DNA of 64,000 bases from Symbiodinium sp. CCMP2592 (taxonomy: Eukaryota > Sar > Dinophyceae > Suessiales > Symbiodiniaceae). Position 1 is the first letter of the stretch, and each line of letters starts with the position of its first letter. The position numbers were made by a program, and so were the translations under genes. Shown piece by piece: positions 4,911 through 62,481 of the stretch. The DNA lies in contig CAJNDT010000494.1 in NCBI GenBank assembly GCA_905221615.1, positions 130,001 to 194,000 of the forward strand, read 5' to 3'. The notes below the pieces were generated by a model. It searched no databases and was not told where the DNA came from. It saw only the letters and a list, made by a program, of their open reading frames with translations.

Positions 4911-4985
4911 TTGCGTGCGATTTAAGCCTTGGTTAGAGGAGGCACCAACATGCGGAGAGGCTTTCAGTCTCTTGCGTCAAGCCAC

Positions 4986-5046
4986 CATGTTTTTCCACTG
5001 CAAAGCGGAAGCTGGCATAGTCCGGCGGGTAGAACTTCGCCACGTC
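4986..5046 (-). CDS. Probable C-terminal exon of the ABC-F gene
   Basis: After the acceptor CGACGCAG|G the frame reads DVAKFYPPDYASFRFAVEKH, in the phase expected from the preceding exon (phase 0), across an intron of only 174 bp. The 3' end at a possible GT donor (4,985) is uncertain, since the frame stays open for about 17 more codons. The composition is strongly coding-like, but I do not recognise the domain. It could be a C-terminal extension of the ABC-F protein or part of a neighbouring gene. Confidence 0.5.
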
Positions 5047-8000
5047 CTGCGTCGAAACTTTTGCAGGCGTAACGGTTGAAAGCAAGGCTCGTTATGTGGC
5101 CTGGTGGCTGTTGATGTGCAAGACACCGCTCCGGTCAGCCAAGTGGCGGCCGCGACTCACGATCAATCCTGACGAACGCAAGCCGGGTTTGTGCTAGCCG
5201 CGGCGTGCAAGGCGGCTCACCGTCGACATTGTGCCTTTGATGCACAAGTCGTCCGTGTAGTCGAAGACGTACTGCTCGCCCCCCTTGTGCCGGATCTCGC
5301 TAGGCTGGGCAGCAGTATCGCCTGTCAGATGTATGCGTGGCCACAAGAGCGTCATTGAGAAAACTAGTGCTGAATCGTTCAGGATCTAGGGTTTGAGCCT
5401 GGGGCCTTTCATTCCCACAGGCTCAGATCGTCGGGTGTAAGGGCTGTAAGGGTGTCCCGGTTTCGGGTGTAGAGTCCATAGTTTAGGGTTTACTTGAAGG
5501 TTCATGGGTAGCTGTAAGTAGGTTTATAGGTAGGGTAACTATACTTATAACCCATACTACGGGACTCATAACCCCGCTAGCAACTACTCATGAACCTCCA
5601 AGTAGGGCTTCAAAGGGTTTACGGTAATCCCAGCGTGAGAGGCTTTGAGCTGTGGGTGGTGGGGCCGGTGACATGTTGCTGCAATTTCCTAGGATGACTG
5701 CGTAATGTAGGGGCCTTAATTATAAGAATAGGGTTCTGGGGCCGATTATATTATATATAACTGTAGAAAAGAACCCCCGAAATAGTATTGGCAATTGTTT
5801 AGGCGCCTATATTACGTTTACGTTTCATCGAACAGCGGTATTGGTAACTATCAGTATGCGTAGGAGTCAGTATGGGTATAGCGCAAAAACTGACTGTTAT
5901 GATTAACAGTAGTTGATGTTGTTGTTGTTGTTGCTGCCGTTGTTGGGCCTAGATGTCGACCAACGCCAACAAACCACCACCACCGCCACCACCATCTCCA
6001 CCGCCACGGCCACAACAGTCACCACGGCAACGACACTACGCCCCTGAGCTCTGCCAAGGCCAAACCAGAATGCAACTCTTGAGCCCGAATATCGATCTAA
6101 TTCCCAAGCCGTGACACGCGGCCGAATCGGAGAAAACCAGGGCCCCTGCTTAGACGCAGTGCTCGCTGCGCTTGCGTCAGGCGTCCTGTGAGATTTGGAG
6201 GCTTCTTGTCTTCAGGCTCCAGGCTTTAAAGTTTAGGATTCACTGGTTGGTGTCTGGCTGTAGGAAGCGCGGAATGTCGGGTCTGCCAGCTTACGAAGGC
6301 CAGCTTCAACAGCAAATAATCTTTCAGAAGCGAACCTTAAGCACTGTGATCTATCGCACCACCCCGAAGGTAAACAATGCACGATACATCGCATCAGCCT
6401 GTCCGTTCTCTTGCTGATACTCTGATACTCCCGCGAATGGACCAAACTTCGCTATATTACAGGAGGCCCTATAAACCCTAAGCCACTTTTGTGGAGAAGC
6501 CCTACCTACTTAGAGGATCATGGGACTTAGTAAGTAGGCTATAACTGGGGTTATAAGTCCCCTAAGTGGGGTTATCCTAATTATAACCTACTTATAACCC
6601 TACTTACTAAGTCCCATAAGCCTTCAAGTAATACCAAGACCGATCATCCTCCATGTCCGATGTCGGTCCTTTGGATATTGCCATGGTTCAGCATCTGAGG
6701 GTTTAGGGATTTAGGGATTTAGGGGTTTAGGGATTTAGGGGTTTAGGGGTTTAGGGTTTAGGGGTTTAGGGTTCAGCATCTTATAGGGTTTAGGGATTTA
6801 AGGCTTAGGGGTTTGGGGTTTCGGAGAAGGTTTGATAGCTGAAATTGTGTGGCTTGGCCACCTGTGACGGTGCAAGGCGGGACGCTGGGACGAGCTGAAC
6901 AAAACCATAGAAACCGCGAATCCCTAAACCCCTGTACTTCAAGACTTCTGGGAACAACTCTCAACCGTAAACCCCAAGGACCATCGATAAGAAGGCCTGC
7001 CGACCACACAAGTCGCTTAACTCAGAACAGTAGGTGTATTACGGTGTAACCTTAACCCGACATCCTAAGCAACCACCCTACCCAAAGAGCCCAATACCCC
7101 TTAATCCTTAAATGATTATAGGGGCTTGATATTACGATTTAGGCCATATTCCTTAATTAAGGGGTATTGGGCTCTCTGGGTAACACGTACAACCTTAAAC
7201 CTTAGCCCCCTGAACACCGATACGTAGAACCCTCCACCCTAACTTCACTACATCTACAAGTTCTGAGATCCCAAACCCTACACTAAACACTAACCCTCAA
7301 GCCCTACCCAGAGAGCCCAATACCCCTTAATTAAGGAATATAGCTTAAATTCTACTTTGAAGTCCCTAATGGTTTAAGGTATATTCCTTAATTAAGGGGT
7401 ATTACATCACCCCAATGGCCCAAGTCCCACAACCCCGCCTCTGCTGCCCTAACCTAACAACTAAGCTAGCCCCAGGACCTAGTATTAGACCCCTAAATGC
7501 CCCTTATTTGGGACCATATACCCCTATTTGAGGGTACAAGGTCTCACAACCCCGCCTCTGCTGCTTCTTCTGTGTCTCAAGAAGCTCAACGAAGGAGCCA
7601 GTCCAGAGTTGCGGCTGGCCTTCGCCCCAGCAACATTTGGGTGGTTGTCAAAATTAGGGTTTAGGGTTTAGGGTTTATGGGTACCTATTATCATAGGGCA
7701 TCTAATACTTATTATTTATGGTACCCAAAAAGGGACTATAATTTTGACAACCACCCATTTGGGAGTTCCGAAAAATGGGGGACCCTAGTAAAGCACCCGA
7801 AATACTAGGATCCTTATTAGAAGGACTCCAAATTGAGGCACCCGTAATTTTCGGAAACTCCCATGTAACAAACTGCAAAGGCTGAGGAGGGGTTAGGGCT
7901 GCCTTAAACTACCATAACCTACAAAAAGTAGGTTATGGTGGTTGAACGCCGGGTCCGCACAGAGACCCCAAGAGGGACGGGGGTTCAGGGTTTAGGGAAA

Positions 8001-11000
8001 ATTCCTTACATCGCTGCGGGCTTCGTCATGAAGTCAAGGCAAGGTTGCTGAACAAAGACACTTTCAGAGTGTCTGGGGTTATCATTGTATTGCCCGAAGC
8101 ATTTGGATCCCCAAATGCGAAACCCTAAACCCGACGAAAACCCTAAACCCTATAAACCCTGAACCCAAAATCCTAAACCCTACACCCAAACTCTTAACCC
8201 CTAAACCAAACCTCTGAACCCAAATACTGAACCCAAATCTCCGATACCTAAACACTATAAACCCCGAACCCTGAAGCCTGAACCCAAATCCTTAACCAAA
8301 GTTTACATCGTCCAAGTGGCTGCCATCCGCCTGCATCACGACGAAGGAATCACACACCTGGGCTTCAACCCTAAACCCTAAACCCCAAAACCCCAAAACC
8401 CAAAACCCTAAACCCCACTGAAAATAATACGATAAAATAAGGCTTTGGGGTTTAAGTACGGTTTAGGACTCCCGAGGTTCAGGGCTTTAGGGTTGAGTGT
8501 TTTAGGGTATGGGGCTTCAGAGGTCCAGGGTTTAGGGGGATTCTAGTGTTCGCGGTTTTAGGGTTTATGGCTTACGGCGCGTTTACGGTTTAGGGTTTAG
8601 GGGCCCCAATCATTAACATGTGCTTCTCCAGGCTCTTGAACATACTTATAGTGCTGAGCCATTATAGAAGGTGCAGCAACCAACATGTGCTTCAATCGCC
8701 TTTATTTGGGTGGTTGTCAAAATTATGGTCCCTTTTTGGGTACTCTAAATATTAGGTGCCGTATTATAATAAGGACCCAAGAATGGAGTTTGAAGGGTGC
8801 GAAGGATCTTGCACAGGCTCTACTGGAATATCCCGCAATTCATGGTCCCTGTAGGGTTTAGGGTTTGTAGGGTTTAGGGCCTGGTTCGGGATTTTCATGG
8901 TAGTTTAAGGAAGGTCTTAAATCTGAAACCAGAGCCACTACCATGACTTAAGGAATCCCACCCGGAACAGGGAGTCGCATGGAGTCGCTGGGACTTCGCG
9001 AAGCTCTGTTGAGTGTAAAGGATCCCGGTTATGGGGATGAGGGTTTCGGATTCAGGGTTTAGGCAGGGTTTGGCATGACTTCAAGAACAATCGCCCATAT
9101 GCGTAAGTATCTACATCTTGCAAAGCAAGGTCTCTGTCAACAAGAAGCCGGAAACACAAACGCTGTGACGATGACGATGATCATTGCTGTTACTGCTATT
9201 GAGTCCTATGCTGCTAGTAATGCATCAAGGCATAAAGATGATGATGATGATGACGATGATGTCGCTGCTGTTCTTGGTAGTGGTGGCGGCGTGATTCTCG
9301 CAAGCATCCTCCAGAGAGGTACCTGAATACCCTAAATCAAGCGTGTTGAGAGCCGGGCGCCATCCAACAGGGATCGATCGTGACCTGAATCGCCAGTTCA
9401 CAGCCAGAGGCACTCAGCAAGCATTACCCTCAACCCTAAACTGTTCGGGGTTTGGGATTAAGCTGGGAAGGAAATTAGTATAGGGGGCTGGCAAACTTTT
9501 CATTTCTCCCACCCCGCCGGGTTCAAAGCACTACGCACTTTAGGTTCACTCCGCACGTAGCCTGTATTTGGGAATAACATCTACATCTGTCGTGAGAAGA
9601 AGGTGCAAAGCACGTCAAGGGGTCTGAATTGTCCTTTGTTGTCGTTTTACTTAGATGGATAGATAGACAATTAAATAGGAACGTAGGTGGGTAGATGGGT
9701 AGATCGATATAAATTATACGGATAGTTGAATCAAAAGTTCCAGTACCTCAGGCCCCCTCCAACAGTTTGCAGTTTGAACGAATCTGGGCAAGCTTGGCTT
9801 TGCCGTGACGAGCAGATACACCACTTCAACCCGAATTTCCCCCAAAAACTCCCCGATGTAAGTATCCTCAACTACATTGACTTGAAGGTTTGTCTTGTCT
9901 AAATGGCTTCAGGGGATTGAACACTTAATTAGGGCTTAAGGTACCCTGAACCCTAAACCATGAACCCTAATCCTTGGGTACTGCCCTCATACAGCAACAG
10001 TCTATGATTGGGCTACTATTAAGTGCTTAACATATCCATTCTATGAACATAATCCAACTGTGACTGAGGTGAGCAGTACCCAACCTAAACCCTTAATCCT
10101 AAGCCCTAATGTCTAAACCCTAAACCATAACCTCTAAACCCTTAATCCTACGCCCTAATCCCTAAAAATAATTACACCCTAAACCGTCTTGAAGCTCATC
10201 CAAGCCAGGGGCTCACGAGGAGGAGCGTGCCCGTGTAGCGCTGGAGCATGAGCTCCAAAGAGTCCACGGTTACCTTTAGGGTTTAGGTAGGGGTTCCTTT
10301 TAGGGTTCCTTTGACGGTTTAAGGGCTTAGGGTTTAGGGTTTACGGGTTTAGGGTTCCTTCAAGGGGTACTGTAAGGGTACTCTAATCAAGGAAGCCACT
10401 TCCCATGCTCGCTCGAAGTCGGTGCTTCCAACGCGTTATCGTGTTCGCTCAAAGTCTGTTTCTCGCTCGCATGCCCCCTGCTACCTTCTGCTGATTCTCT
10501 GGTTCATGTGTGTGTGTTTTCAGTGCATTAAACTGAAGTTTTGCTTCATTCGCACACGACGACGTCACATGGCATCAGAACCCCACGTCAATCACGACGT
10601 TGGCGCTTGGCCGGTCTGTCACTCGCGGGCGAGATCGAGCGAGCACGTTAGGATGGAGCGAGCGCGCGAATGTCCAGGAGAACCACTCCGCCAGCTCGTG
10701 AAGTCTCGTGGTCAGCCAGCCGTCCTCAAATTCGGCGTGCATGCTTGCTCGGGTTCGGTGCTCGCTCGCTCCGCGTTCGCGGTCACCGTGCGAGACCTTG
10801 CGCGCACAGGATTTTTAGCGAGCGCGTAATCTTTTAGAGGCAGCAATTTCGAGCGAGCACGCAGGATGCTTCGAGAAACGTCCATTTAATGGCGCGGGCC
10901 CGGGTCTAGTAGGGAATCGTGCTCGCAAAAATTTGCGTGCCGAAATGCCGTGTGCACGTGACCGGAGCTGCGACGTTGGCGAGCACGCAGCACCGCGAGC

Positions 11001-41000: not shown

Positions 41001-44000
41001 TAAGCCCTAAACTCTAAGCCCTGGGCAGAGGGGTGCTGACGGACAGGGTACTATAGGGGCCGTAGTAATAGTTAGAATAGGGTGCTGGCTCTATTATACT
41101 GAAAATTCAATAAGGAACCCCCCAAACCCTGCTCTAACTATTAAGGCCCCTATATCAGGTGAAGCATTCGTGGCGCTGTAGGGCTTGGTTGTTTACGTCT
41201 TGGGGATTCCAGGTGGGGGGCTTCATTTCCGGGTGCAGGAGCAGGAGGTGATCGTTTAGGGTCGTGCAGGGCCGAGGCTGTGCCTTAATGCCCAAGACCA
41301 CCACCTCATAAACAACATCCATAAGGCTTTGTTTGAGGTTCAGGTAGTGCTCAGGGTAATTCTGCCGAAGGGTCTGGAGTCTGGAGTTCGGGTTTGTGGA
41401 AATTGGTGACAAGTACCACCCTGGGACCAGTTATTCATCCATCCTGTTCGGCTTAGGTAAAGCCAAGCCAGTGCAAGGATGCATACATAGCTACTTGAAG
41501 CACTTACGACGATGTAGTATGTATAAAGCTTGGAGTTCAAGGTTTTGCATGTAATCCCACTTTGCTTCCGCGCCGAAAACCGGGGTCGCTAGTTTGAGCC
41601 GTGAAGGGATCTACGATATAGGGTTGAGGCTGAGGCACCCAAATCTCTGGTAGGGTTATCACTAAATAAACATGCACCTTGGAAAGGAAGGTAGCTACCT
41701 CAGGCCGGACCCCTGTCTAAACAATCCTTCACCCAAAACCTTCAGTCTGAAACCCTGAAGCCCAAATTCTGATTCTTGTTTCAGAGCCATATCACCCTCT
41801 CCCCTGACCCCGCCAGCGCGGCAGCAAGCGCCACACGACGCTCCTCGCCACCACTCAAGGACCTCGCTCCGTGAGTTCAGGTAGTGTTTAAGGTTCCGGA
41901 GTTTAAAGCGGCTTGTGATTAAAATGATGTGCATGCAAGGCCTCATATATAGGCTTAGGGATAGGAGAGTTTGGGAATGCCTGTGTGTGGGGCTTAAAGG
42001 GTCTCACAAGGCTTTAGCAAGTTCACATGTAGGAACATGACGAAAAAAACCTACCTGCCTCTTGTTCGGATCCTAGTAGATTCTTGTGTTTTGTGGAATG
42101 GAACCAGGGGCTCTTCATCAGAAACCGACCCTGGGGTTTAACGGCTTAGGGGCATCTCATGCTTATTGAAACGGAGCCCAGCATCTACTCCTTAACCAGG
42201 GAACCTTCGGACCGAAGGATTCTTCATAAGATAACTACTTGGAGGTTCATGAGTAGTTAGAATTAGTGGGATTATAAGTGCCATCGTATGATTTATAAGT
42301 ATAGTTACCCTACTTATAACCCCACTTTTAACTAGCTATGAACCTCCAAGTAGATCTTGTTATAAGGACCCCGGTAAAAGGTGTTCCACAATTTGAAAGC
42401 CCCCTATGGTGTAACCCTCTCAAATGCGCTGAACTGGGTTACAAAATAACCCGTAAACCCCAAGGCCCTTGTCAAATCCTACCCCTACCTGTCAACCAAA
42501 AATATTTGCCCTTTGAAGAACTGTGTAAGGAACTCAAAATACGGGGCCAAGGTTACTAATTAAAGGTTCAGGCGCGCACTCAAACCGAAGTTCCTTAAGC
42601 CCATGAAGGAACCCCGAACCCTAGATCCCCAAAGATTACCCCACAAGTAGTTAAATAAAAGCCAGACACACCTTTGGGCGGCTGTCAATAGTAGGATCCC
42701 TTTTCGGGTCCTTATTGTAATACGGCATCTAGTATTTAGGGTAGCCAAACAGGGACCATAATTTGGACAATCACCCATATAAAAAGGCCATTATTCCGCA
42801 AACTTGTTTAGAGACCCTAAACCGTAGAATCATTCATCTGTTTTGGCTTGGCCAACCCTAAACCCTACGAATCTGCGTTCCCTGGGCCCATGAAGGAGAG
42901 CTGCCCGACTTGGCGATCGAGTAAAGGGCCGAGACCCAGCTCCTGCGAAAGGGTTGGTAAGGTAGGGGCGGCAATAATAAATAGTTAGGGTTTATAGGAT
43001 CCAGAGTTTATAAGGTTTAGGATTTAGGGTTTATAGGGTTTAGGATTTAGGTCTTACAGGGTTTAGGGTTTGAGGTTTAGGGGTTAGGGTTTAGGTTTTG
43101 GGGATTAGGCAGGGTTTAGGGTTTAGGATTTAGGCTAAGTTTAAAGGGTTAACATCCTGATTAGAAGATGTGTATAAAAAACCCTTACTGTTTAGGGTTT
43201 AGGGTTTATGCTTTTAAGGGTTTAGGGTTTAGGGGTTTAGGGTTTTGTATAGGGTTTAGGATTTAGGGTTTAGGGGTTAGGATTTAGGGTTTTAGAATAA
43301 GCTTCCTTGAAGATAGCAGGACTGTTATATAGTCTGGGAATAATGTTATCACAAACCTACTAAGGAAGCCGAAGCAATAGTATAAGCACATGTTCAGACG
43401 GCCGACGCACACTGGACCTTGATCCAAAAGCTAGCAAAATATGTCGTTGTCGCCTACGATCATCTATGAATCTATGAAACCCTACACCCTGTACCCTAAA
43501 CCTAAACCCCTATCCCAAGGCTTGTTTACTGGATGTTGGCTTTGGAGCAGATTTGGGGGGTATCGGGGAAGCCCCGCGGCACACTTTTCCAAGAATCCTT
43601 CAACGCCACCCCTCCTTGGTCGATCTTTCCATTTTCGTCCAGGTGGCCGCGTCTGCTGCTCGCGCCACTTGGGCCCTCGACCTTGGAGTTGTCCTGCTTC
43701 CCAGAGAAGTTGCACTTCATGGTCTTCCTTTCCGACGTGGCCGCCCGGGCCTTGGCCCACCTCCTGCTCTGTTGCCGCCTGGTGGGATGCCAGCGCAGTG
43801 GCATGCAAACGGATGCACCGCCGCATCTGCGTGGCCCGCCACTGCCACTGCACGCACGATCTGACCCGGAAGAGACGAAACGTACTTCGCCAAGTGGGCT
43901 GCGCAGAACGCCACCTGCATGCCTTGTCCATTTCTCTGCGGCCCCCCCCGGGAAGGGCACTGCGGATTGCGGCTTAGGGTTGAGGTTTGGGAAGAGGTGG

Positions 44001-46479
44001 TTAGGGTTTACGGTTGGGGTCTAAGTCAGGATTTAGGTGGGCGGTCGGGCGGATCGAAACATGAACTAAACGAAGGAAATATCAGGGCTGAGAACAGTTG
44101 GGTAGTTCTCTAAAATGAGGATTCCTTTTCTCCAGAATATTACGGCAATGTTGTAAACAGGACCCTACAATGAGAACTACCCAGTTGGAGGAGATCGAAG
44201 TCACTAAAAACGTAGACCCTTCAGCAGAATCGTGGCTCTCGGAAAGTTGCGCTATCAATCCCTACTTGGAGGTTCATGCGTAGTTAGAAGTGGGGTATAA
44301 GTCCCCTGATATGGGTTATAAGTATAGTTACCCTACTTATCACACTAATCACTACCCATGAACCTCCAAGTAGCCCTGGCGTTAGTTCAGGTAGGCCTGC
44401 TTATCTTCAGTCTGCCTACGGGTTTGCAAACACACAAAGAAGGGAGAGCGGCAATCGAGACGCCAATGGAGCGAGTCGAGCGTCCCACCGCAGCAGTTCG
44501 AACCTCAAGCCTGGTTTTCAAAATCCAAAACCTTAATGTTTGTAATTATGGGGAAGGTTGGGGTATAAAGATGCGGGGAACTCAACTACCTATCGAGAGT
44601 TCTATGGTAGTCGTGAAAAAACATCTGAAACCACCAGATAATGAATCCCAAGCCTGGCACATCAGCCAAGATGACAACCTTAGAACCATGCGAAAATTTA
44701 TCAAACCCTAAGGTTGCCCTGAGCCCAGACGGCAAAGAGGTGCCCTCATGATGTCACCAGGGATTTTGAAACGGATTCCTAGACCCACATGGATGTCTCA
44801 GTCATCCTCAACCCTGAGTTCGTTGCCGGAACTGTGTTTTAGGATAGAAACCTAGCACTATTTCTCCGCAAAAACTCGTCAGGGTGTCTTATTATGAGTA
44901 TACTATGAGAAGCAATACTCTGCTTATTAACGCCCCTGCCTTAGGATGTGATTGGATCTGTCCCGTTCGCCCGTGGACTATTCTAAGGCTTCTCTCAGCC
45001 CCCATAGACTCCAAGACATGCCTTCAACCCTTCACCCCCAAACCCTCACTACATGGGAGTTTCCGAAAATAGGGGACACGAATTCCGAATATAGCACCCC
45101 AAATAGTAGGATCCTTATTATAGAGACCCCAAAATAAGGTACCCCGGAATTTTGGGAAACTCCCGCATGCAGTAAAACTCAACAATCCCCAAACCTTTAA
45201 ACTCCACAGCACAAGCCCGATAGCCTCCCTGCTTTGAACAACGGTTTTTGGGTTTAGGGTTTAGGGGGTTTAGGGTTTAGGGTTTAAGGGAATCCTTACC
45301 AAGGTAAGCCCCTGAAACTAAGACCTCCCGAAATCCTATCAACGAAACCTGACAAAAAACACACATCCCTGAACCCTGAAACCCTACAGCCCTAAACCCT
45401 CAAGCCCTACGAAACCCTAAATCCAACCCGAAATCCCTGAAACCCTATAACTTATAACCCCTAAACCCCTGAAGTACCCTTATCGGAACCCTGCGAGATC
45501 CCGACAATAAACCCTACGCCTCAAAGCCCAGTGAACCGGCCAATGAGCCTCTGCTACGCGGCTGACTTGTTCGTCCCAGGTCCAGGCCTTCTTGGGTCTC
45601 CCAGGTAGAGCTTTTGGCTTTGCCAAGACCCCCCCAATGGCCCTTTAATGGAGCCCTTATGGTCCTTAGTAGTGGGTATTTAGGGCATATTAGAGGGTAG
45701 TTGGAGGGTTTGGGTAGGGCAGTTTAGGGTTTAGGGGCTTATTGTTCAGGGGTTTAAGGTTTCGGGGTTTTGGCTTTTGGCCCTTTGGCGTTTAGTTGTG
45801 AGGCTTTACGCCCTTTTAGGGCCTTCAGGGTGTGATTCGAGCCCTTTAAGGTTTAGGGGATTATTGTTTAAGACAAGACTAGGGGTTTCAGGCTTAGGCT
45901 TCAGGGTCTAGTGTTGAGGTGTAGAGTCAGTGTAGAGTTTACGGTTCAATAGTTTCAGGTTTAGGGTTTCACGGTGTTTCGCAACTGGTCTCCGCCACAC
46001 ATGCTGTAATTTTGACACCTCAAGCTTACAAGCTGCTCCAGTAAGTTGCTACCAGGTTCTCGTGGCATGCAACAGATATCAACGCTTGGAATCCTCCAGG
46101 TAGTCTGAATATCTCACGCTCCGTAGACTACATTGAAGAATGCCGAATTGAGTGTTAGACATTGCAGTGTCCCTTTCCAGGGTCCCTCTAATAGTAACCC
46201 CATAGTAAGATACATGCATGACACATACCCGAATTTCAAACAGCGTTCCTACGCTGCGGAACAGAAAAAGGACCCGAGATCTAGCTAAAACCCTCTCGTT
46301 CACTAGTAGCCACCACGCTGAAACCCAACCTCAAGACCGTAAAAAGCCTAACACCCCATAGTACCCTTGGAGTACCCCTTATACAGATCCGGGTAGACCC
46401 TCCCTGCAGCCATACACCCCATAACAAGCACCTCTGGCATGGCATCCATCTTCTCCAACGCTTTTGCCAGCTTTTCCTC
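4986..46479 (-). CDS. Uup-like ABC-F ATPase gene, about 28 short exons (5' end outside window)
   Basis: ABC-F proteins are soluble twin-cassette ATPases without membrane domains; most studied members bind the ribosome and act in translation. Read 5' to 3' on the minus strand, the exons give NBD1 signature (SLSGGEERRVALAAAL), Walker B (DLLILDEPTNHL) and H-loop (SHDRYFLDRV); a charged linker; then NBD2 Walker A (GIVGPNGAGKST), Q-loop (GYLSQ), signature (LSGGENRR), Walker B (NVLILDEPTNDLD) and H-loop (VSHDRSLLDG). EPTNH in NBD1 and EPTND in NBD2 is the Uup pattern. Reading phase matches across nearly every junction. Acceptors are AG|G in nearly all cases; donors are GT, GC or GA. NBD1 Walker A and the N terminus are missing and should lie to the right of the window. 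The boundaries are my reading, not transcript data. Confidence 0.8.
5221..5321 (-). CDS. Probable C-terminal extension exon of the ABC-F gene
   Basis: It is bounded by CTGACAG|G and a strong GTGAGC donor. Its frame reads GEQYVFDYTDDLCIKGTMST and similar coding-like sequence. It needs one base from the exon before it, and the exon at 7,551-7,614 ends with exactly one leftover base (G), so the phases agree. No family is recognised. The long intron before it (7,550-5,322) holds inverted-repeat families D, C and B and a TTTAGGG array. Confidence 0.5.
5491..5604. repeat. Inverted-repeat element, family C subtype 2, copy 1
   Basis: The ends read TACTTGAAGGTTCATGGGTA and, reversed, CATGAACCTCCAAGTA. 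The interior is rich in ACTTATAACCC-type sequence. Related copies lie at 42,236-42,352 and 44,263-44,372. Confidence 0.65.
5706..5811. repeat. Inverted-repeat element, family B, copy 1
   Basis: The left end TGTAGGGGCCTTAATTATAAG and right end ATTGTTTAGGCGCCTATA are the termini of a family seen about ten times in the introns of this window. The consensus starts TATAGGGGCCTTAATAATTAG. Confidence 0.6.
5917..6012. repeat. Trinucleotide-rich tract (GTT then CCA/CCG)
   Basis: A GTT run near 5,917-5,940 is followed by a CCA/CCG-rich run near 5,965-6,012. It is simple-sequence DNA without a supported gene. Confidence 0.6.
6507..6630. repeat. Inverted-repeat element, family C subtype 1, copy 1
   Basis: Long imperfect arms, TACTTAGAGGATCATGGGAC and its counterpart GTCCCATAAGCCTTCAAGTA, flank an ACTTATAACCC-rich core. 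Copies are also at 19,980-20,103 and 27,203-27,322. Confidence 0.65.
6699..6815. repeat. Degenerate TTTAGGG array
   Basis: A dense run of TTTAGGG, TTAGGGA and TTTAGGGG variants, interrupted once. It is interstitial telomere-like repeat DNA within an intron of the ABC-F gene. Confidence 0.75.
7079..7182. repeat. Inverted-repeat element, family D, copy 1
   Basis: It begins TACCCAAAGAGCCCAATACC and ends GGTATTGGGCTCTCTGGGTA, a near-perfect inverted pair flanked by TA. It belongs with copies at 7,305, 11,560 and 25,642. Confidence 0.7.
7305..7403. repeat. Inverted-repeat element, family D, copy 2 (right end truncated)
   Basis: The left arm TACCCAGAGAGCCCAATACC is intact. The right arm stops after AATTAAGGGGTATT, so the terminal GGGCTCTCTGGGTA is missing. 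Confidence 0.65.
7551..7614 (-). CDS. ABC-F exon: post-NBD2 helix (WTGSFVELLE)
   Basis: The frame PQLWTGSFVELLETQKKQQ follows directly in phase from the exon at 8,307-8,357. It matches the G-x-Y/F-xx-LL stretch that follows the H-loop strand in ABC-F NBD2. The acceptor is GCCAG|C, one of few not followed by G. The donor is GTTGTG, leaving one base. A near-copy of the exon 3' end and donor (23 of 24 bases) is 117 bp downstream at 7,424-7,447. Confidence 0.7.
7638..7759. repeat. Inverted-repeat element, family E, copy 1
   Basis: Arms are TGGGTGGTTGTCAAAATTA and AATTTTGACAACCACCCA. A TTTAGGG triplet has been inserted in or replaces part of the left inner arm. It abuts a family A copy on its right. 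Confidence 0.7.
7759..7864. repeat. Inverted-repeat element, family A, copy 1
   Basis: Arms are TGGGAGTTCCGAAAAATGGG and AATTTTCGGAAACTCCCAT. The interior carries the family hallmark TACTAGGATCCTTATTA. Nine full or partial copies occur in the window. Confidence 0.7.
7906..7943. repeat. Short near-perfect hairpin
   Basis: ACCATAACCTAC, a loop of five A, then GTAGGTTATGGT form a perfect 12-bp stem that extends further with one mismatch. It is intronic and its function is unknown. Confidence 0.7.
8307..8357 (-). CDS. ABC-F exon: last beta strands of NBD2
   Basis: Seventeen codons, VCDSFVVMQADGSHLDD, sit between CCCAG|G and a GTAAAC donor, phase 0 at both ends. They correspond to the VxDxxFVxxxDG segment that follows the H-loop in ABC-F proteins. 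With the previous exon the junction reads LLDG|VCD, as expected. The intron after it holds family E and A elements and the hairpin. Confidence 0.75.
8706..8775. repeat. Inverted-repeat element, family E, copy 2 (half)
   Basis: Only the left arm (TGGGTGGTTGTCAAAATTA) and core through TATAATAAGGACCC are present; the right arm is missing. Confidence 0.5.
9234..9263. repeat. (GAT)n microsatellite
   Basis: A GATGATGATGATGATGACGATGAT run lies in the intron between the H-loop exon and the 8,307-8,357 exon. Confidence 0.75.
9359..9384 (-). CDS. ABC-F micro-exon (26 bp): NBD2 H-loop
   Basis: The bases read GT then HDRSLLDG. The preceding exon ends in a single A, so the junction codon is AGT (Ser), giving LLLV-S-HDRSLLD, the ABC H-loop with its switch histidine. 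The acceptor is TTCAG|G and the donor GC. At 26 bp it is one of the shortest exons here and would be missed by ORF-based searching. Confidence 0.75.
10213..10273 (-). CDS. ABC-F exon: helix and strand before NBD2 H-loop
   Basis: The frame ends LELMLQRYTGTLLLV plus one base. It matches the helix and beta strand between the D-loop and the H-loop. The acceptor is AAAG|G and the donor GC (10,212). The previous exon ends LD in phase 0, giving NDLD|VTVDSLE. The following intron has GATA-like simple sequence near 9,652-9,710. Confidence 0.8.
10390..11360. repeat. GC-rich island with dispersed GAGCGAGCACGC motif
   Basis: The 12-mer GAGCGAGCACGC or a close variant occurs near 10,633, 10,850, 10,977, 10,996, 11,016, 11,038, 11,055, 11,084 and 11,323. 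Spacing tightens to about 20-30 bp between 10,977 and 11,100. Reverse-complement variants (GTGCTCGCTCGC) occur near 10,755. Open frames on both strands here probably follow from the repeat composition. The island sits in the intron between the Walker B and following exons of NBD2. Confidence 0.6.
11560..11672. repeat. Inverted-repeat element, family D, copy 3
   Basis: Arms are TACCCAGAGAGCCCCATACC and ATATTGGGTTTTCTGGGTA. Its right-hand TA is shared with the left TA of a family F copy that begins at 11,671. Confidence 0.7.
11671..11786. repeat. Inverted-repeat element, family F, copy 1
   Basis: It begins TACAGTAAACCCATAAAG and ends GGGTTTCTACTGTA. CAGT-type ends next to TA resemble Tc1/mariner-derived MITEs. 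Copies are also at 16,273 and 20,572. Confidence 0.7.
12170..12209 (-). CDS. ABC-F exon: NBD2 Walker B and D-loop
   Basis: One base then NVLILDEPTNDLD: Walker B with catalytic Glu and an intact D-loop Asp. The previous exon ends AC, so AC+G codes Thr and the join is seamless. The acceptor is CCCAG|G; the donor is GC (12,169). EPTNDLD is typical of the second cassette of Uup-like ABC-F proteins. Confidence 0.85.
12554..12623. repeat. Short inverted repeat (AGGTTACCTTTTTGG)
   Basis: AGGTTACCTTTTTGG and an imperfect reverse copy ending AAAGGTTACCT enclose about 30 bp. A related fragment without a partner arm lies near 12,385-12,420. Confidence 0.4.
12816..12919. repeat. Inverted-repeat element, single copy (TAGGGTCCATGTAC)
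   Basis: TAGGGTCCATGTAC and GTACATGGACCCTTA are inverted ends about 100 bp apart. I found no second copy in the window. Confidence 0.55.
12950..13170 (-). other. GC-rich coding-like fragment inside an intron
   Basis: On the minus strand a frame (VRPGFEEPAGKKIPLPKA and onward) is bounded by AG|G and a possible GTGGGG donor. The flanking ABC-F exons join perfectly without it, so it is unlikely to be an exon of that gene. It may be a captured gene fragment or an exon of an unseen transcript. Confidence 0.3.
14217..14345. repeat. CCCTAAA-type degenerate array
   Basis: Repeated CTAAACCCTAAA, CTAAACTCTAAA and similar units form a C-rich-strand telomere-like array. It ends just beside the NBD2 signature exon. 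Confidence 0.75.
14355..14428 (-). CDS. ABC-F exon: NBD2 signature motif
   Basis: The frame reads VGMLSGGENRRLQLLRVLV and continues to QKPIL plus two bases (AC). LSGGE is the ABC signature; VG before it and QKP after it are typical of Uup-like NBD2. The acceptor is TCCCAG|G, the donor GTGAAG. It joins in phase to the Walker B exon 2.1 kb away. Confidence 0.85.
14442..14539. repeat. TTTAGGG array
   Basis: About a dozen near-tandem TTTAGGG units, some changed to ATTAGGG or CTTAGGG, start within 15 bp of the signature exon acceptor. Confidence 0.8.
14620..14675. repeat. Inverted-repeat element, family A, copy 2 (half)
   Basis: It matches the left half of family A (GAAAAATGGGGGACCCTAATA to TAGGATCCTTATTG) and lacks the right arm. 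Confidence 0.5.
15200..15640. other. GC-rich island with open frames, part of a dispersed repeat
   Basis: Long frames are open on both strands, none with a recognised motif. The part from about 15,530 to 15,605 recurs in inverted orientation at 17,165-17,275, so at least this part is repetitive. A short truncated family B end is at 15,802-15,830, and a weak family B-like match spans about 16,044-16,142. Confidence 0.35.
16273..16389. repeat. Inverted-repeat element, family F, copy 2
   Basis: Arms are TACCGTAAAACCCCAAAAAT and TTTCTGGGGTTTACTGTA, with the shared core AATCCTTAAGAGTAA and GGGAATCCCAGCAC-type sequence. Confidence 0.7.
16550..16610 (-). CDS. ABC-F exon: NBD2 helical region before the signature
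   Basis: One base then GKR followed by AAMLRAINFAQSRWSTP. In Uup-like proteins this region has an A..LL..F.F pattern ending TPVG just before LSGG; the next exon starts VGMLSGG in phase. The acceptor is CCCAG|G and the donor GC (16,549). Confidence 0.75.
17165..17275 (-). repeat. Dispersed repeat, inverted relative of 15,530-15,605
   Basis: Read on the minus strand it shares the order GTTTTACA, GTGTTTATGGG, GTGTCTG, CAAGGTC and GGGTTGAGTGT with the plus-strand segment near 15,530-15,605, with small indels. Confidence 0.5.
17554..17653. repeat. Inverted-repeat element, family G, copy 2
   Basis: GGTTGATGATATAAAATCCTG and CAGGATTTATATCATCAACC form long, nearly perfect arms. It is the better copy of the family first seen at 244-385. 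Confidence 0.75.
18000..18118. repeat. TTTAGGG/TTTATAGGG array with higher-order period
   Basis: A block of GGGTTTAGGGCTTAGGGTTTA followed by TAGGGTTTATAGGG repeats itself two to three times with a period near 50 bp. Confidence 0.65.
18563..18609 (-). CDS. ABC-F exon: NBD2 helix after the Q-loop
   Basis: The frame includes SPLLEEMAIAA and ends AC at a GA donor (18,562); AC plus the next exon's G codes Thr. It fits the V..VVxEIA helix after the Q-loop. The start is uncertain: the acceptor may be GGAG|T at 18,610 (used here) or TGAG|G at 18,583, which would shorten the exon to 20 bp. Confidence 0.55.
18825..18927. repeat. Inverted-repeat element, family A, copy 3
   Basis: Arms are TACGGGAGTTTCCGATAATA and AATTTCGGAAACTCCTGTA, with AGTAGGATCGTTATAAGG between. 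Confidence 0.65.
19308..19353. repeat. Perfect CCCTAAA tandem array
   Basis: Six uninterrupted CCCTAAA units, the cleanest telomere-type array in the window. The orientation shows the C-rich strand on plus. Confidence 0.9.
19403..19488. repeat. Inverted-repeat element, family B, copy 2 (truncated)
   Basis: The left end TACAGGGGCCTTCATAATTAG and the core through CCCCCCAAAATAGTA are present. The right arm is lost. Confidence 0.55.
19980..20103. repeat. Inverted-repeat element, family C subtype 1, copy 2
   Basis: TACTTGAAGGCTCATGGGAC and GTCCCATGATCCTCTAAGTA are the inverted ends. The interior has ACTTAGTAAGTA and TTATAACC motifs as in the other copies. Confidence 0.7.
20390..20496. repeat. 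Inverted-repeat element, family B, copy 3
   Basis: CATAGGGTCTTGAATAAGCAG on the left pairs with CTAATTGTCAAGACCCCTACA on the right; the core has AACCCCCAAAAACCC. It is a diverged member. Confidence 0.5.
20572..20689. repeat. Inverted-repeat element, family F, copy 3
   Basis: TACAGTAGAAGCCCAAAAG and TATGGGGTTTACTGTA are the ends. The interior closely matches copy 2 at 16,273. Confidence 0.75.
21083..21190. repeat. Inverted-repeat element, family E, copy 3
   Basis: TATGGGGGGTTGTCAAAATTA and AAATTGACAACTACCCATA are the ends. The TA-flanked layout is clear in this copy. Confidence 0.75.
21352..21393 (-). CDS. ABC-F exon: NBD2 Q-loop
   Basis: Fourteen codons, VLMGYLSQDPPQWP, contain the Q-loop GYxxQ of an ABC cassette. 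The acceptor is ATTAG|G, and phase 0 agrees with the previous exon (GDG|VLMGY). The 3' limit at a GA donor (21,351) is inferred; the frame remains open for a few more codons. Confidence 0.7.
21995..22049 (-). CDS. ABC-F exon: strand after NBD2 Walker A
   Basis: One base then TLVGDISPSSGDVFIGDG, the L.G...P.SG.V segment that follows Walker A in ABC cassettes. The previous exon ends AA, so AA+G gives Lys in STLL-K-T. The acceptor is CTTAG|G; the donor is GC (21,994). Confidence 0.8.
22088..23268. repeat. Intron with partial family A and B elements and CCCTAAA runs
   Basis: A family A left half is at 22,088-22,148, a family B fragment at about 22,613-22,676 and a family A right half at about 23,203-23,268. 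Between them, 22,830-23,190 holds loosely repeated AACCCTAAACCC and GACCCAAGG-type units with a period near 170 bp. No exon is seen. Confidence 0.5.
23329..23406 (-). CDS. ABC-F exon: NBD2 Walker A (P-loop)
   Basis: The frame includes FDFKKKHPE followed by VGIVGPNGAGKSTLL. GPNGAGKST is a textbook Walker A motif. The exon ends AA|GA, a GA donor, and only this choice keeps phase with the exon at 21,995-22,049. The 5' limit (CCCAG|A at 23,407) is less sure; an internal AG|G would trim it to start at VGIV. Confidence 0.8.
23617..23745. repeat. TTTAGGG/TTTAGGGG array
   Basis: A run of degenerate TTTAGGG units, partly TTTAGGGG, in the intron before the Walker A exon. Confidence 0.75.
24995..25075 (-). 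CDS. ABC-F exon: first beta strands of NBD2
   Basis: One base then STSTI and GDMFLTNVVVEVPGRGRLL, ending two bases into a codon at a GT donor (24,994). It corresponds to the strand pair (LELxNVxxxxGxRxLL) that opens an ABC-F NBD2. The incoming phase matches the linker exon, giving EDK-M-STS, like the KMSRLG region of Uup relatives. The acceptor is AGAAG|G. Confidence 0.75.
25103..25203. repeat. Inverted-repeat element, family B, copy 4
   Basis: TATAGGGGCGTTAATCATTAG and ATAATTATGTAGGCCCCGATA are the ends; it starts 28 bp from an ABC-F exon. Confidence 0.65.
25642..25752. repeat. Inverted-repeat element, family D, copy 4
   Basis: TACCCAGAGACCCAATATCC and GGTATTGGGCTCTCTGGATA are the ends, with palindromic TTAATTAAGGAATATA near both arms. 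Confidence 0.75.
25836..25950. repeat. Inverted-repeat element, family A, copy 4
   Basis: TATGGGAGTTTCGGAAAATAG and AATTTTCGGAAAGTCAGATA are the ends, with an extra ATTTTAATATTTAGT insertion near the left. Confidence 0.7.
27016..27122 (-). CDS. ABC-F exon: inter-domain linker
   Basis: Thirty-five codons include PKAQMNAVDDLRERAQK, then NDGNPDLEDK, plus two bases. Charged helical sequence of the type PKAR..KAR.D....L+E+A is the linker between the two cassettes in Uup-like proteins. The acceptor is TTAAG|G and the donor GC (27,015). It is the longest exon found. The intron after it carries family A, D and B elements. Confidence 0.75.
27203..27322. repeat. Inverted-repeat element, family C subtype 1, copy 3
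   Basis: TACTTGGAGGGGCAGGGGAC and GTCCCCTGCCCTTGGGATA pair as arms around a TTATAACC-rich core. Just before it, 27,119-27,182 repeats TCCTTAAAGGGACCTATAAGG three times. Confidence 0.65.
27586..27681. repeat. Inverted-repeat element, family H
   Basis: CCTGTAGCCGAAAGGACCTAC and GTAGGTCTTTCCGGCTACAGG form a long palindromic pair about 95 bp across. Confidence 0.65.
27790..27925. repeat. Inverted-repeat element, family A, copy 5
   Basis: TATGGGAGTTTCCGAAAATAG and TAATTTTCAGAAACTCACATA are the ends. The centre carries a local palindrome around CATCCTACTATTTAGGG. Confidence 0.7.
28653..28684. repeat. (GTAT)n-like microsatellite
   Basis: A GTATGTATGTATGCATGTACG-type run within an intron. Confidence 0.7.
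28766..28831 (-). CDS. ABC-F exon: linker with W and TKNR motif
   Basis: Twenty-two codons, including LRRAEAWASRGASGRGTKNR, match the LRREL.W.RRG...R.TKN linker of Uup-type ABC-F proteins. The acceptor is CCGCAG|G and the donor GC (28,765). Phase 0 on both sides agrees with the exon at 27,016-27,122. The following intron holds a (GTAT)n run and family H, A and C elements. Confidence 0.7.
29484..29510 (-). CDS. Possible ABC-F micro-exon (27 bp) in the linker
   Basis: After TTGTTGCAG|C the frame reads PRGAHEADA in phase 0, ending at a GC donor. It would supply the short helix expected between RYQAA and LRRAEAW. Evidence is position, phase and composition only; the acceptor lacks the usual following G. 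Confidence 0.4.
30310..31440 (-). other. GC-rich island, coding-like, probable gene or retroelement remnant
   Basis: A 242-codon minus-strand frame (30,386-31,114) and a further coding-like stretch at about 31,265-31,434 (MDAVRLLGSRAFRPP) are open, with no recognised domain. A 19-residue phrase, AQRRARRGPQTGGS and neighbours, recurs at 33,590-33,660. It lies in the largest intron of the ABC-F gene, where no exon is expected. I treat it as inserted sequence, not part of that gene. Confidence 0.35.
31757..33330. repeat. 11-bp minisatellite (GTACTACTACT) with duplicated flank modules
   Basis: Three arrays of an 11-bp unit, GTACTACTACT with ATT and CCACT variants, lie at about 31,757-31,800, 32,096-32,416 and 32,670-33,087. 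Each is followed by a nearly identical module (starting 31,801, 32,417 and 33,088) that runs CTTGATTATTGGGG, then GCTAGGGTGAACCGCCGAATC, then TTTAGGG-like sequence. Module spacing is 616 and 671 bp. The 11-bp unit has no stop in any forward frame, so spurious overlapping proteins of 11-residue period appear in all three. Confidence 0.9.
33540..34130 (-). other. GC-rich island, coding-like, related to 30,310-31,440
   Basis: A 145-codon minus-strand frame (33,681-34,118) contains natural-looking sequence such as VLDFNLAGENLGNVEARD and ends before a segment (33,566-33,660) homologous to the island at 30.4 kb. No domain is recognised. It lies in the same ABC-F intron. Confidence 0.35.
34831..34932. 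repeat. Inverted-repeat element, family B, copy 5
   Basis: TGTAGAGGCCTTAACAGTTAG and TAATTATTAAGGCCCCTATA are the ends, with the core AGGAACCACCAAAATAGTAT. Confidence 0.7.
35077..35126 (-). CDS. ABC-F exon: helix after NBD1
   Basis: Two bases then SWELFLKRRAERYQAA. The previous exon leaves a single G, giving a Gly codon and the reading DGNG-SWELFLKRRAERY. This fits the G.Y..YLE.RAER helix leaving NBD1. The acceptor is TGCAG|G, the donor GTTCTA. The intron after it, up to 5.6 kb, carries the minisatellite and both related islands. Confidence 0.75.
35145..35250. repeat. Inverted-repeat element, family I
   Basis: TAGAGGCTTGTACCCTACCC and GGGTAGGGTATGAGCCTCTA are the ends. A family A copy starts three bases further right. 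Confidence 0.65.
35253..35362. repeat. Inverted-repeat element, family A, copy 6
   Basis: TATGGGGGGTTTCCGAAAATA and TAATTTTCGCAAACTCTCGTA are the ends, with TAGAATCCTTATTATAAGG in the core. Confidence 0.7.
35872..36232 (-). other. Orphan open reading frame inside an intron
   Basis: About 120 codons are open on the minus strand, with natural composition (for example GWVPYRYIERVRYMWKGQDY and TRLNEALQAAGVWVKRQGQW). Upstream it includes a tandem 15-mer (GTCAGTTACGCGCAA and GTCAGTTACGTGCAA, coding VSYAQ VSYVQ). The flanking ABC-F exons at 36,557 and 35,126 join in phase without it, so it is not needed by that gene. I do not recognise the family; a nested gene or captured fragment is possible. Confidence 0.4.
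36557..36586 (-). CDS. ABC-F exon (30 bp): strand after NBD1 H-loop
   Basis: Two bases, then DEIFEIDGN, then one base. The previous exon ends in T, so T+GC codes Cys and the join reads DRVC-DEIFEIDGN, the D.I.ELD.G strand of ABC-F cassettes. The acceptor is TGAG|G, the donor GTGAGA. Confidence 0.8.
36640..36760. repeat. CCCTAAA-type degenerate array
   Basis: Units CCCTAAACCCTAAACC, CCTTAAACCC and CCTGAACCC run through this part of the intron. Confidence 0.7.
36866..36972. repeat. Inverted-repeat element, family B, copy 6
   Basis: TATAGGGGCCTTAATAATTAG (the best left end of the family) and GGTAATTGTGTAGGCCCCTA are the ends. Confidence 0.7.
37242..37273 (-). CDS. ABC-F exon (32 bp): NBD1 H-loop
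   Basis: One base, then SHDRYFLDRV, then one base. It contains the switch histidine (SHDR). The previous exon ends GT, so GT+G codes Val in LILV-SHDR. The acceptor is CTGAG|G, the donor GTCCGG. Confidence 0.85.
38505..38545 (-). CDS. ABC-F exon: helix and strand before NBD1 H-loop
   Basis: Thirteen codons, ETLTSARDVSLIL, plus two bases. It fills exactly the gap between the D-loop helix and SHDR. The acceptor is GCTAG|G and the donor GC (38,504). The intron after it shows no recognised element. Confidence 0.75.
38655..38680. repeat. (AT)n microsatellite
   Basis: Thirteen uninterrupted AT units in an intron. Confidence 0.9.
38845..39140. repeat. CCCTAAA run followed by TTTAGGG run (opposed orientations)
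   Basis: From 38,845 to 38,990 the units are CCCTAAA-type; from 39,045 to 39,140 they are TTTAGGG-type. The two halves face each other as a loose inverted pair. Confidence 0.65.
39551..39593 (-). CDS. ABC-F exon: NBD1 D-loop region
   Basis: One base then PTNHLSAEGCEFLQ. With the previous exon (ending GA) it completes DE-PTNHL. The D-loop, normally HLD, reads HLS. The acceptor is CCAAG|G; the donor is GA (39,550), the only choice that keeps phase with the exon at 38,505-38,545. Confidence 0.8.
40000..40370 (+). other. Coding-like island on the opposite strand inside an intron
   Basis: On the plus strand 40,190-40,348 is a 53-codon frame between TCCAG|G and GTGTCT, phase 0 at both ends, reading for example KCRRAWHAVADAGTKIERP and ESSQAFFAALTAILSS. 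A minus-strand frame of about 112 codons also spans 40,000-40,338. No domain is recognised. It may be an exon of a nested opposite-strand gene or a captured fragment. Confidence 0.35.
40621..40658 (-). CDS. ABC-F exon: NBD1 Walker B
   Basis: Twelve codons, VDLPSTDLLILD, plus GA. The next exon's G completes the catalytic Glu, giving LLILDEP. The acceptor is GGAAG|G and the donor GC (40,620). Confidence 0.85.
41052..41154. repeat. Inverted-repeat element, family B, copy 7
   Basis: TATAGGGGCCGTAGTAATAG and TAACTATTAAGGCCCCTATA are the ends, with AAGGAACCCCCCAAACCC in the core. Confidence 0.7.
41814..41862 (-). CDS. ABC-F exon: NBD1 signature motif
   Basis: One base then SLSGGEERRVALAAAL, the ABC signature and following helix. 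The previous exon ends GG, so GG+G codes Gly in QVG-SLSGG. The acceptor is GCGAG|G, the donor GC (41,813). A good-looking plus-strand splice pair (TTTCAG to GTGAGT) overlaps it but encodes nothing recognisable. Confidence 0.85.
42236..42352. repeat. Inverted-repeat element, family C subtype 2, copy 2
   Basis: TACTTGGAGGTTCATGAGTAG and GCTATGAACCTCCAAGTA are the ends; the interior has TATAAGTATAGTTACCC. Confidence 0.75.
42674..42779. repeat. Inverted-repeat element, family E, copy 4
   Basis: TTGGGCGGCTGTCAATAGTAG and ATTTGGACAATCACCCATA are the ends. It is diverged from copy 3. Confidence 0.6.
42905..42942 (-). CDS. ABC-F exon: helix before NBD1 signature
   Basis: Twelve codons, ELGLGPLLDRQV, plus GG. 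It matches the LGL....V..LSGG approach to the signature. The acceptor is CGCAG|G, the donor GC (42,904). Phase agrees on both sides. Confidence 0.8.
43000..43300. repeat. TTTAGGG/TTTATAGGG degenerate array
   Basis: Nearly continuous TTTAGGG, ATTTAGGG and TTTATAGGG units, with a short unique insert near 43,140-43,190. Confidence 0.75.
43520..43970. other. GC-rich island with frames open on both strands
   Basis: Two minus-strand frames and three plus-strand frames longer than 100 codons overlap here. The minus-strand stretch MKCNFSGKQDNSKVEGPSG and the downstream frame look most coding-like. No motif is recognised and the ABC-F exons join without it. It is probably an inserted or captured fragment. 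Confidence 0.3.
44098..44185. repeat. Inverted-repeat element, single copy (GGGTAGTTCTC)
   Basis: GGGTAGTTCTC at 44,100 and GAGAACTACCC at 44,172 are perfect inverted ends. Confidence 0.55.
44263..44372. repeat. Inverted-repeat element, family C subtype 2, copy 3
   Basis: TACTTGGAGGTTCATGCGTAG and ACCCATGAACCTCCAAGTA are the ends. Confidence 0.75.
45051..45166. repeat. Inverted-repeat element, family A, copy 7
   Basis: ACATGGGAGTTTCCGAAAATA and GGAATTTTGGGAAACTCCCG are the ends, with the full TAGTAGGATCCTTATTATA core. Confidence 0.7.
45558..45587 (-). CDS. ABC-F exon (30 bp): NBD1 AWxWD motif
   Basis: Ten codons, AWTWDEQVSR, matching the AWDxE..... motif of the NBD1 helical subdomain that follows ALEKMD. 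The acceptor is AGAAG|G, the donor GTAGCA, phase 0 on both sides. The long intron after it carries families A, C and others and the 43.5-kb island. Confidence 0.8.
45637..45725. repeat. Dispersed repeat related to 3,519-3,590
   Basis: CCCTTTAATGGAGCCCTTATGGTCCTTAGTAGTGGGTATTTAGGG-type sequence recurs near 3,519-3,590 (CCCTTTCATGGAGCCC and onward) in the same orientation. No inverted ends are visible. Confidence 0.55.
46432..46479 (-). CDS. ABC-F exon: NBD1 helix (ALEKMD), first exon seen
   Basis: Sixteen codons, EEKLAKALEKMDAMPE, fit the helix preceding AWDxE in Uup-like NBD1. The acceptor is CCTCAG|G, the donor GTGCTT, phase 0 at both ends. The next exon upstream, expected to carry NBD1 Walker A, is not found between here and the retroelement at 46,787. 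It must be beyond the retroelements. Confidence 0.75.
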
Positions 46480-46731: not shown

Positions 46732-46786
46732 CCTTTTTTTTTTCCTCCACCGTGCCCCCCCCTCCCCCTCCCCCCCCCCCTCCCCC
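46732..46786. repeat. T- and C-rich tract at the retroelement 3' junction
   Basis: Ten T residues, then a C-rich run broken by single T and ending CCCCC immediately before the LTR. The same kind of tract flanks the 5' LTR. Confidence 0.85.
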
Positions 46787-47034
46787 TGTGCCGATACACC
46801 CCCAAGGGATACTCCTTGTAAGGAGGTGTATGACCAGTTATTCCCTAAGGATCAAAGGGCAGCGCCCTGCACACGGACAGTAGTTGTTTTGTCTTGCTAC
46901 GCAAGGAGAGCTTGTCTTGTCTCAATATGGTAAAACCACTGTGAGCCAATGGGCAGCGGAATGTATATGTATGAGCATGCAGCCATTGCTGTAGGTACCT
47001 GTTAGAGCTACCCCTTTAGAGGTTTATGGTTTCA
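46787..47034 (-). repeat. 3' LTR of the giant copia element
   Basis: 248 bp; on the minus strand it begins TGAAACC and ends GGCACA (TG...CA). It differs from the 5' LTR at 62,482-62,730 by two substitutions and one single-base gap, indicating a fairly recent insertion. Confidence 0.9.
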
Positions 47035-47341
47035 AACAGACACTAATTTTCTTTTACCGGAAGCATGGCCGCACATTCACACATATACTGTTATGCCCAC
47101 TGTCACAGTTGCGGAGTTTGGACTCATTATAAAAACAGCATATTATTTATGCTAGGTATAGCACTGAAGTACACTGCTGAGGACACTCCACTCATTTTGC
47201 ACACACACTCATGCATGTTGGTCAGAGAGATCATCTGTACAAGATCATGTCTGGTGATGTTTTCTACATCGAATTATGCAGCCTTTCACCTTGCTCTTGT
47301 TAGAGCTTTGTGAGTCACTATTGTGAAACTCTGAGATTCTC
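47035..47341 (-). other. Non-coding 3' internal region of the copia element
   Basis: This follows the last ORF and precedes the 3' LTR. It is conserved in the second copy (63,045-63,354). A purine-rich run (AAAAGAAAA on the minus strand, about 47,049-47,057) is the best polypurine-tract candidate but lies about 14 bp from the LTR, farther than usual. Confidence 0.6.
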
Positions 47342-54266: not shown

Positions 54267-54489
54267 TACGGCACGATGACCAAACAGGATCAGGAATGCT
54301 TGGTAGCTCAAAAGGCTGATTGCTGTGAAGCTCGAGGCTGAAAGCGGCTGCGGATGATGCAGAACATATAGTTCTCATGAACATGTTTGATCTTGATGAA
54401 AACGCAGCTTGCAGACACAAATTTTCTTTTAGACGAAAAACAGTCTAAATAGAAAATCCAGCACATGGTTGTGCTGCCAGCAAACAAGA

Positions 54490-60304: not shown

Positions 60305-60307
60305 CTA

Positions 60308-60700: not shown

Positions 60701-60750
60701 CACCTTGCCCCTTGCCCCTCGGATGTTTCCAAAAGACCTGGGCACGTAAC

Positions 60751-62475: not shown

Positions 62476-62481
62476 GAAAAC

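Follow-up and report, generated by a model that had tools for sequence, protein, structure and literature searches.

Background

By binding near the E site of the ribosome and acting through their linker near the peptidyl-transferase centre, bacterial ABC-F proteins are thought to relieve translational stalls. ATPase-deficient mutants of the four E. coli ABC-F proteins inhibit protein synthesis (PMC6723617), and B. subtilis YfmR works together with EF-P and, when overexpressed, relieves stalls at Asp-Pro (PMC11381351). In the Symbiodiniaceae, introns of the GC/GA-AG type have been reported at 25–74% (PMC11453091, PMC7789003), and introners with terminal inverted repeats and 4-bp target-site duplications are known in S. 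microadriaticum (PMC9860276).

The locus described here lies within a 64-kb window, which is the whole stretch of DNA that was analysed. It is virtually certain that an ABC-F gene is present, and we take the locus, at a probability of roughly 0.9, to be a conserved nuclear gene of dinoflagellates, represented here by its larger, 3' part, that codes for a Uup/EttA-like (bacterial-like algal) ABC-F ATPase; the gene is very probably functional. Its exons in the window cover the final portion of the first cassette, then the linker, the complete second cassette and the first part of the C-terminal coiled coil. The gene as such is ordinary. Homology supports the borders given here for its 32 introns, of which 29 have GC or GA donors. 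An earlier note on this DNA had called the gene cryptic and hidden in apparently empty sequence. The empty sequence is intron, and "cryptic" does not apply to a gene whose orthologues have existing predictions in Breviolum minutum, Effrenium voratum and Durusdinium trenchii. This case shows that a reader without tools can recover a dinoflagellate gene broken into many small pieces.

Exon structure of the gene

A custom spliced protein-to-genome aligner, allowing GT, GC or GA donors and AG acceptors with AG|G favoured, was run over the window with P0121 as guide. P0121 is a 662-aa frame on a 2,150-nt JGI contig, and this contig and that of P0002 are presumably cDNA. The alignment places 33 exons between 46479 and 1470, all on the minus strand, and they total 1,509 bp against 43,501 bp of intron. 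When joined they give a single frame of 503 residues with zero stops, and 493 of the 503 are identical to P0121 residues 123–625, gap-free. Short minus-strand segments with splice-type borders that join in frame, as the earlier note had proposed, thus exist. Its count of 26 was too low, with 29 exons inside 7551..46479 and four more below (6185–6150, 3433–3380, 2220–2181 and 1499–1470), and its segment lengths of 26–107 bp are replaced by an exon range of 20–96 bp (median 44 bp). With the distant E. coli Uup as guide, several true exons were recovered with false ones mixed in.

All exons that follow are on the minus strand and come from the spliced alignment to P0121. Exon 1 in the window (EEKLAKALEKMDAMPE, 46432–46479; acceptor AG|G, donor GT) covers the stretch of the first cassette that precedes the signature and follows the Walker A, the latter not found in the window. 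It is followed by exon 2 (AWTWDEQVSRVAE, 45549–45587) and exon 3 (ELGLGPLLDRQV and then a split G, 42905–42942), after which exon 4 carries the first ABC signature SLSGGEERRVALAAAL (41814–41862) and exon 5 the first Walker B VDLPSTDLLILD with a split E (40621–40658). Exon 6 (PTNHLSAEGCEFLQ, 39551–39593) has Ser in place of the D-loop Asp. Exon 7 (ETLTSARDVSLIL, split V, 38505–38545) leads to the first H-loop, SHDRYFLDRV with a split C, in exon 8 (37242–37273), and this in turn to exons 9 (DEIFEIDGNGETFSHP, split G, 36536–36586), 10 (SWELFLKRRAERYQ, 35083–35126) and 11 (ARASEVQDAK, 30018–30047). The inter-cassette linker VQLRRAEAWASRGASGRGTKNR is in exon 12 (28766–28831), and exon 13 (AQMNAVDDLRERAQKVVAANDGNPDLEDKMLQ, 27009–27104) comes next. 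Exon 14 (TKSIKA, split A, 26239–26258), of 20 bp and with an AG|A acceptor, is the least certain of the set.

Exons 15 (STSTIGDMFLTNVVVEVPGRG, split R, 25011–25075) and 16 (VLNNISLAFTNGEK, 23767–23810) precede the second Walker A, VGIVGPNGAGKSTLL with a split K, in exon 17 (23329–23375). Exon 18 (TLVGDISPSSGDVFIGDG, 21995–22049) is followed by the Q-loop exon 19 (VLMGYLSQDPPQWPDP, split K, 21344–21393) and by exons 20 (QRVIDVVA, 20185–20209), 21 (EMAIAATSQ, 18556–18582), 22 (GDTGILENDASMSM, split E, 17325–17368) and 23 (GKRAAMLRAINFAQSRWSTP, 16550–16610). The second signature, VGMLSGGENRRLQLLRVLVQK with a split P, lies in exon 24 (14364–14428), which ends at a GA donor, and the second Walker B NVLILDEPTNDLDA in exon 25 (12167–12209). 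Exon 26 (VTVDSLELMLQRYTGTLLLV, 10213–10273) ends in the split S of the second H-loop, (S)HDRSLLDG, which continues in exon 27 (9359–9384). Exons 28 (VCDSFVVMQADG, split S, 8321–8357) and 29 (QPQLWTGSFVELLETQKKQQ, split R, 7556–7619) are the last within the span of the earlier note. Beyond it lie exons 30 (TPDASAASTAS, split K, 6150–6185), 31 (PSSSPKQSKQKSDKKAE, split R, 3380–3433), 32 (EMVRLEKEISRLE, 2181–2220) and 33 (EKLTEIDQAM, 1470–1499), the low end of the last having been placed manually at a GA donor.

In a six-frame scan the minus strand yields, at successively lower coordinates, SLSGGE, LLILDEP, PTNHL, SHDRYFLD, GPNGAGKST, GYLSQ, LSGGENRR and DEPTNDLD. TKNR and VSHDRSLLD, the latter split across two exons, are present in the joined product, where all ten motifs named in the earlier note stand in the order it gave. 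The coding sequence has 59% GC (72% at third positions) and the introns 49%. Each minus-strand ORF of at least 100 aa holds at most one exon; three overlap one exon apiece, two of them in frame. The remark that no long ORF reveals the gene is correct in that none of these ORFs spans more than one exon. The window has no Rfam match at gathering scores, and the ORFs in intronic regions at 30386–31111, 3542–4315 and 43441–43974 have no Pfam match.

Protein family and predicted role

A protein search with a provisional spliced product gave the Breviolum minutum gene model symbB.v1.2.011371 (P0001) as the best match; in a second search P0121 is 96% identical over the entire 405-aa query (among the best 120 of 7,986 matches). 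Pfam finds two PF00005 (ABC_tran) stretches in P0121 and two in the window product, there a partial first and a complete second domain. The proposal of a twin-cassette Uup-like ABC-F therefore stands as to family, strand and tiny exons, with the first cassette represented in the window by its C-terminal part only. ABC_tran_Xtn (PF12848), the other Pfam family that had been expected, is unmatched at E 0.001, for P0121 as for the window product, yet it is listed for P0001; the linker can be aligned to the E. coli Uup linker at RRAEAWARRGASGRGTKN. PF16326 (ABC_tran_CTD) matches P0121 at 37.0 bits (cut-off 32) and is not matched in the window product, where just its start is present. The LSGGE signature, the Walker B with its catalytic Glu and the SHDR H-loop are intact in both cassettes, and none of the 24 Pfam families matching P0121 is a membrane-domain family.

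NCBIfam ranks ABC-F models first, every one below its cut-off: NF000355 scores 352 against 380, the Uup model NF050005 (cut-off 900) gives 344 for P0121 and 282 for the window product, and the EttA model NF008775 (cut-off 599) gives 336 and 271. Because ABC-F models come out on top yet remain below their cut-offs, and because among solved structures EttA and Uup are nearest in sequence, the protein is classed from its sequence as Uup/EttA-like and not as a bacterial equivalog.

In a tree of 21 rows, which contained no named Polarella or Symbiodinium protein, the window product and P0121 group at 100/99 inside a set of six rows at 100/100; the other four rows, from Effrenium, Durusdinium, P0122 and Breviolum, stand together at 87/80 with the window outside. 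From the tree we infer that P0003 and P0125–P0130 are dinoflagellate proteins as well. In 11 motif-matching proteins of the dinoflagellate group, and in P0124 too by alignment, the D-loop of the first cassette is NHLS or NHMS in place of NHLD. Of 236 proteins fetched, 226 had the motif searched for, and of these 209 carry Asp and 17 Ser; besides the 11 in the dinoflagellate group, six carry Ser (two elsewhere in the tree, four unplaced), which rules out Ser at this site as a dinoflagellate-only trait.

The protein is probably a ribosome factor, judging by its likeness to characterised families. It would bind the ribosome near the E site, where the two cassettes as a pair would bind and hydrolyse ATP and so let the linker act near the peptidyl-transferase centre and relieve stalled translation. 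The plastid ribosome would be the likely target, because two named orthologues, P0123 and P0124, have hydrophobic N-terminal extensions that by eye resemble signal plus transit peptides, a segment absent from the window; we give a role in plastid translation about an even chance. A real gene whose protein serves cytosolic or mitochondrial ribosomes, or ribosome assembly, is a possibility that we hold more tentatively. The secretory-plus-transit appearance of the two extensions speaks against it, while the window lacks the N-terminus of the protein, targeting signals are described as mixed or absent in several of the bacterial-like ABC-F groups of algae, and E. coli Uup acts as a suppressor of the assembly defect in a bipA strain (both PMC6723617).

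Ends of the gene and the upstream retroelement

For residues 1–122 of P0121, the segment with the first Walker A, tblastn of three N-terminal queries against the 64-kb window gave second-cassette cross-matches and otherwise only noise. The first Walker A reads GANGCGKST in P0121, and tblastn does not find its exon in the window. For the last 37 residues (626–662) no exon was found in the window either. Directly upstream of the gene, and in the same orientation, is a copia-type LTR retroelement (RVT_2) at 46755..64000 on the minus strand, ending about 275 bp from exon 1. Its end repeats, 46755–47987 and 62760–64000, are 97% identical over 1,241 bp, and RVT_2 is matched at 64.2 bits in its ORF 54956–60265 (Pfam). 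Some alignments had placed N-terminal exons inside this element; these are noise, without tblastn support.

Several further features of the element were observed. It is at least 17 kb long and has two very long ORFs of 1,877 and 1,769 aa, the former (48678–54308, minus) with a weak B-box zinc-finger match of 23.3 bits against a cut-off of 24.1. A stretch of about 250 bp occurs twice, once just below the upper end repeat (62481–62730) and once within it (62795–63044), and the window ends inside or at the edge of that repeat.

The element probably sits in an intron of the ABC-F gene, in which case the upstream exons would lie past it and the intron would be a large one. It could instead have severed the 5' part of the gene and left the remainder to decay as a pseudogene, with the first 122 residues and their Walker A lost from the genome. 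The closeness of the element to the first exon and the failure to find the N-terminal exon in the window fit such a history, which we nevertheless consider very improbable: frame and splice-type borders are kept in 33 exons, the product still matches P0121 at 493 of 503 residues, and an intron of 26 kb has been reported in a dinoflagellate (PMC11453091).

That the motifs were hand-picked from 39 kb of noise, as very short segments and a large search space might suggest, is refuted by the alignment score of 1974 for the real minus strand against 113–163 in 12 controls (plus strand 117, reversed sequence 163, six dinucleotide shuffles 113–142, four shuffled proteins 133–162), the real score including some N-terminal noise exons and the controls likewise. 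The earlier judgement that coincidence is very unlikely is upheld by the same figures. A bacterial or contaminant gene is ruled out by the 33 exons with dinoflagellate-type borders, and a processed retrocopy by the presence of introns.

Splice sites and intron sizes

The 32 introns (1500..46431, minus strand) have 23 GC, 6 GA and 3 GT donors, and 31 of the 32 acceptors are AG|G, a split conditional on an aligner that admits only GT, GC and GA donors and favours AG|G. When each intron was slid, a GT-AG reading without change to the mRNA was possible for 3 of the 32 only. Exon 24 (14428–14364) is illustrative: its homologues read QKPNVL, in agreement with the GA donor. The GT nine bases downstream does not fit, as its use would insert three residues absent from P0121, P0001 and P0002. 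Exon borders at this locus cannot be derived from GT alone, and the spectrum of GC, GA and GT donors is normal for dinoflagellates.

Intron length has a median of 1,161 bp and a mean of 1,359 bp (range 391–5,035 bp, n=32). The mean agrees with the values of 1,408 and 1,296 bp given for Polarella glacialis in the intron table of PMC7245778, and not with the 388–658 bp of its four other columns, the column order of that table being inferred. For Effrenium, a peak of intron lengths at about 1 kb is reported (PMC11114475). Taken with the position of the window in the tree, intron size suggests Polarella or one of its near relatives as the source, and the Symbiodiniaceae assignment of the earlier note may be slightly off.

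Telomere-like repeats at intron ends

The 46.6 kb of the gene region contain 658 TTTAGGG-type and 978 CCCTAAA-type heptamers, against means of 45 and 42 in 20 shuffles. None is in an exon, and the LTR region has 0 and 5 respectively. The heptamers show a polarity: 24 of the 32 introns lean to the TTTAGGG type after the donor and the CCCTAAA type before the acceptor, 6 to the reverse and 2 to neither (first and last 200 bp combined; one-sided sign-flip p 0.0007, for an idea that arose from the very introns tested, in one gene). It persists for windows of 60–300 bp (p 0.0006–0.015) and for pentamers (p 0.00005–0.00045). Of 23 introns whose interiors served as a control, 5 followed the polarity, 12 ran against it and 6 showed neither. 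Scored singly, the donor side is 17 to 7 and the acceptor side 20 to 5, with both in only 11 of the 32 introns.

The two ends of an intron pair no better with each other than with the ends of other introns, which speaks against a role in pairing: mean duplex energy is −68.2 for own partners and −67.9 for foreign ones, and the own partner has a mean rank of 14.6 among 32. Two 5' ends pair equally well (−67.7), so that no hairpin between the partners of one intron is shown. Direct repeats at the borders, of the kind left by target-site duplication, average 2.66 bp against 2.43 bp in permuted pairs, which is not significant (p 0.08). If introns of this lineage are framed in this way more generally, the telomeric-type frames may be terminal inverted repeats from intron gain based on telomere repeats, or a structure uniting the non-canonical GC/GA donors with their acceptors, both of which we think unlikely. 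Among the open-licence papers listed in literature searches, none deals with telomere-like intron ends by its title or abstract opening; in Arabidopsis and rice introns, plant telomere motifs are described as slightly below expectation (PMC3022908). The polarity is relevant to the question of how dinoflagellates came by their many introns.

Short repeats within the introns

A self-comparison of matches above 150 bp had suggested that the introns share no repeat families, which a finer comparison corrected: 81 match pairs with less than 40% telomere-like sequence are common to different introns. Five seed stretches match 2–6 places each in the window, several in both orientations, with long hairpin folds and a MITE-like appearance. 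These MITE-like palindromic repeats, of about 100–240 bp and in several small families, lie inside introns, for example at 42228–42359, 44262–44373 and 5491–5605, at 11557–11796, 25641–25753 and 7305–7403, and at 19979–20116, 6491–6635 and 27203–27315. A separate family occurs at six places (45049–45173 and 25837–25945 among them) in one orientation. The longest intron holds GTACTACTACT minisatellite blocks at 31757–33084, arrays and flanks being repeated at 86–94% identity.

Introners are whole introns present as near-identical copies. The shared repeats at this locus, about 100–240 bp within introns of at least 391 bp, are not of that kind, because they are located in intron interiors. It is possible that they are former introners or MITEs.

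Comparison with known systems

The introners described from Symbiodinium microadriaticum and other dinoflagellates (PMC9860276, PMC11453091) have terminal inverted repeats, and the introns of this gene hold short palindromic ones. Unlike those introners, the repeats here do not form whole introns, and direct repeats at the junctions are not significant.

With bacterial Uup and YfmR the protein has in common two cassettes, a linker and a C-terminal coiled coil, the last seen as PF16326 in P0121. Identity between P0121 and E. coli Uup is 30%, and the Asp of the first D-loop is Ser on the dinoflagellate side. EttA is the best-scoring solved structure by sequence and differs in that P0121 has the C-terminal PF16326. 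The algUup subfamily (PMC6723617), a bacterial-like ABC-F group of diverse algae, is likened here by its description only.

Closest are the dinoflagellate orthologues P0001, P0123 (Effrenium voratum) and P0124 (Durusdinium trenchii, named YfmR), with 65–77% identity across the 405-aa query among the best 120 of 7,986 matches. P0124 has an extra block inside its first Walker B, probably a mis-predicted exon, which is a caution for gene models with GC/GA donors. Unlike these orthologues the copy in the window is cut short at either end, and P0001 itself starts at the first signature; the orthologues share with the window copy the order of the motifs, the linker and the Ser of the first D-loop.
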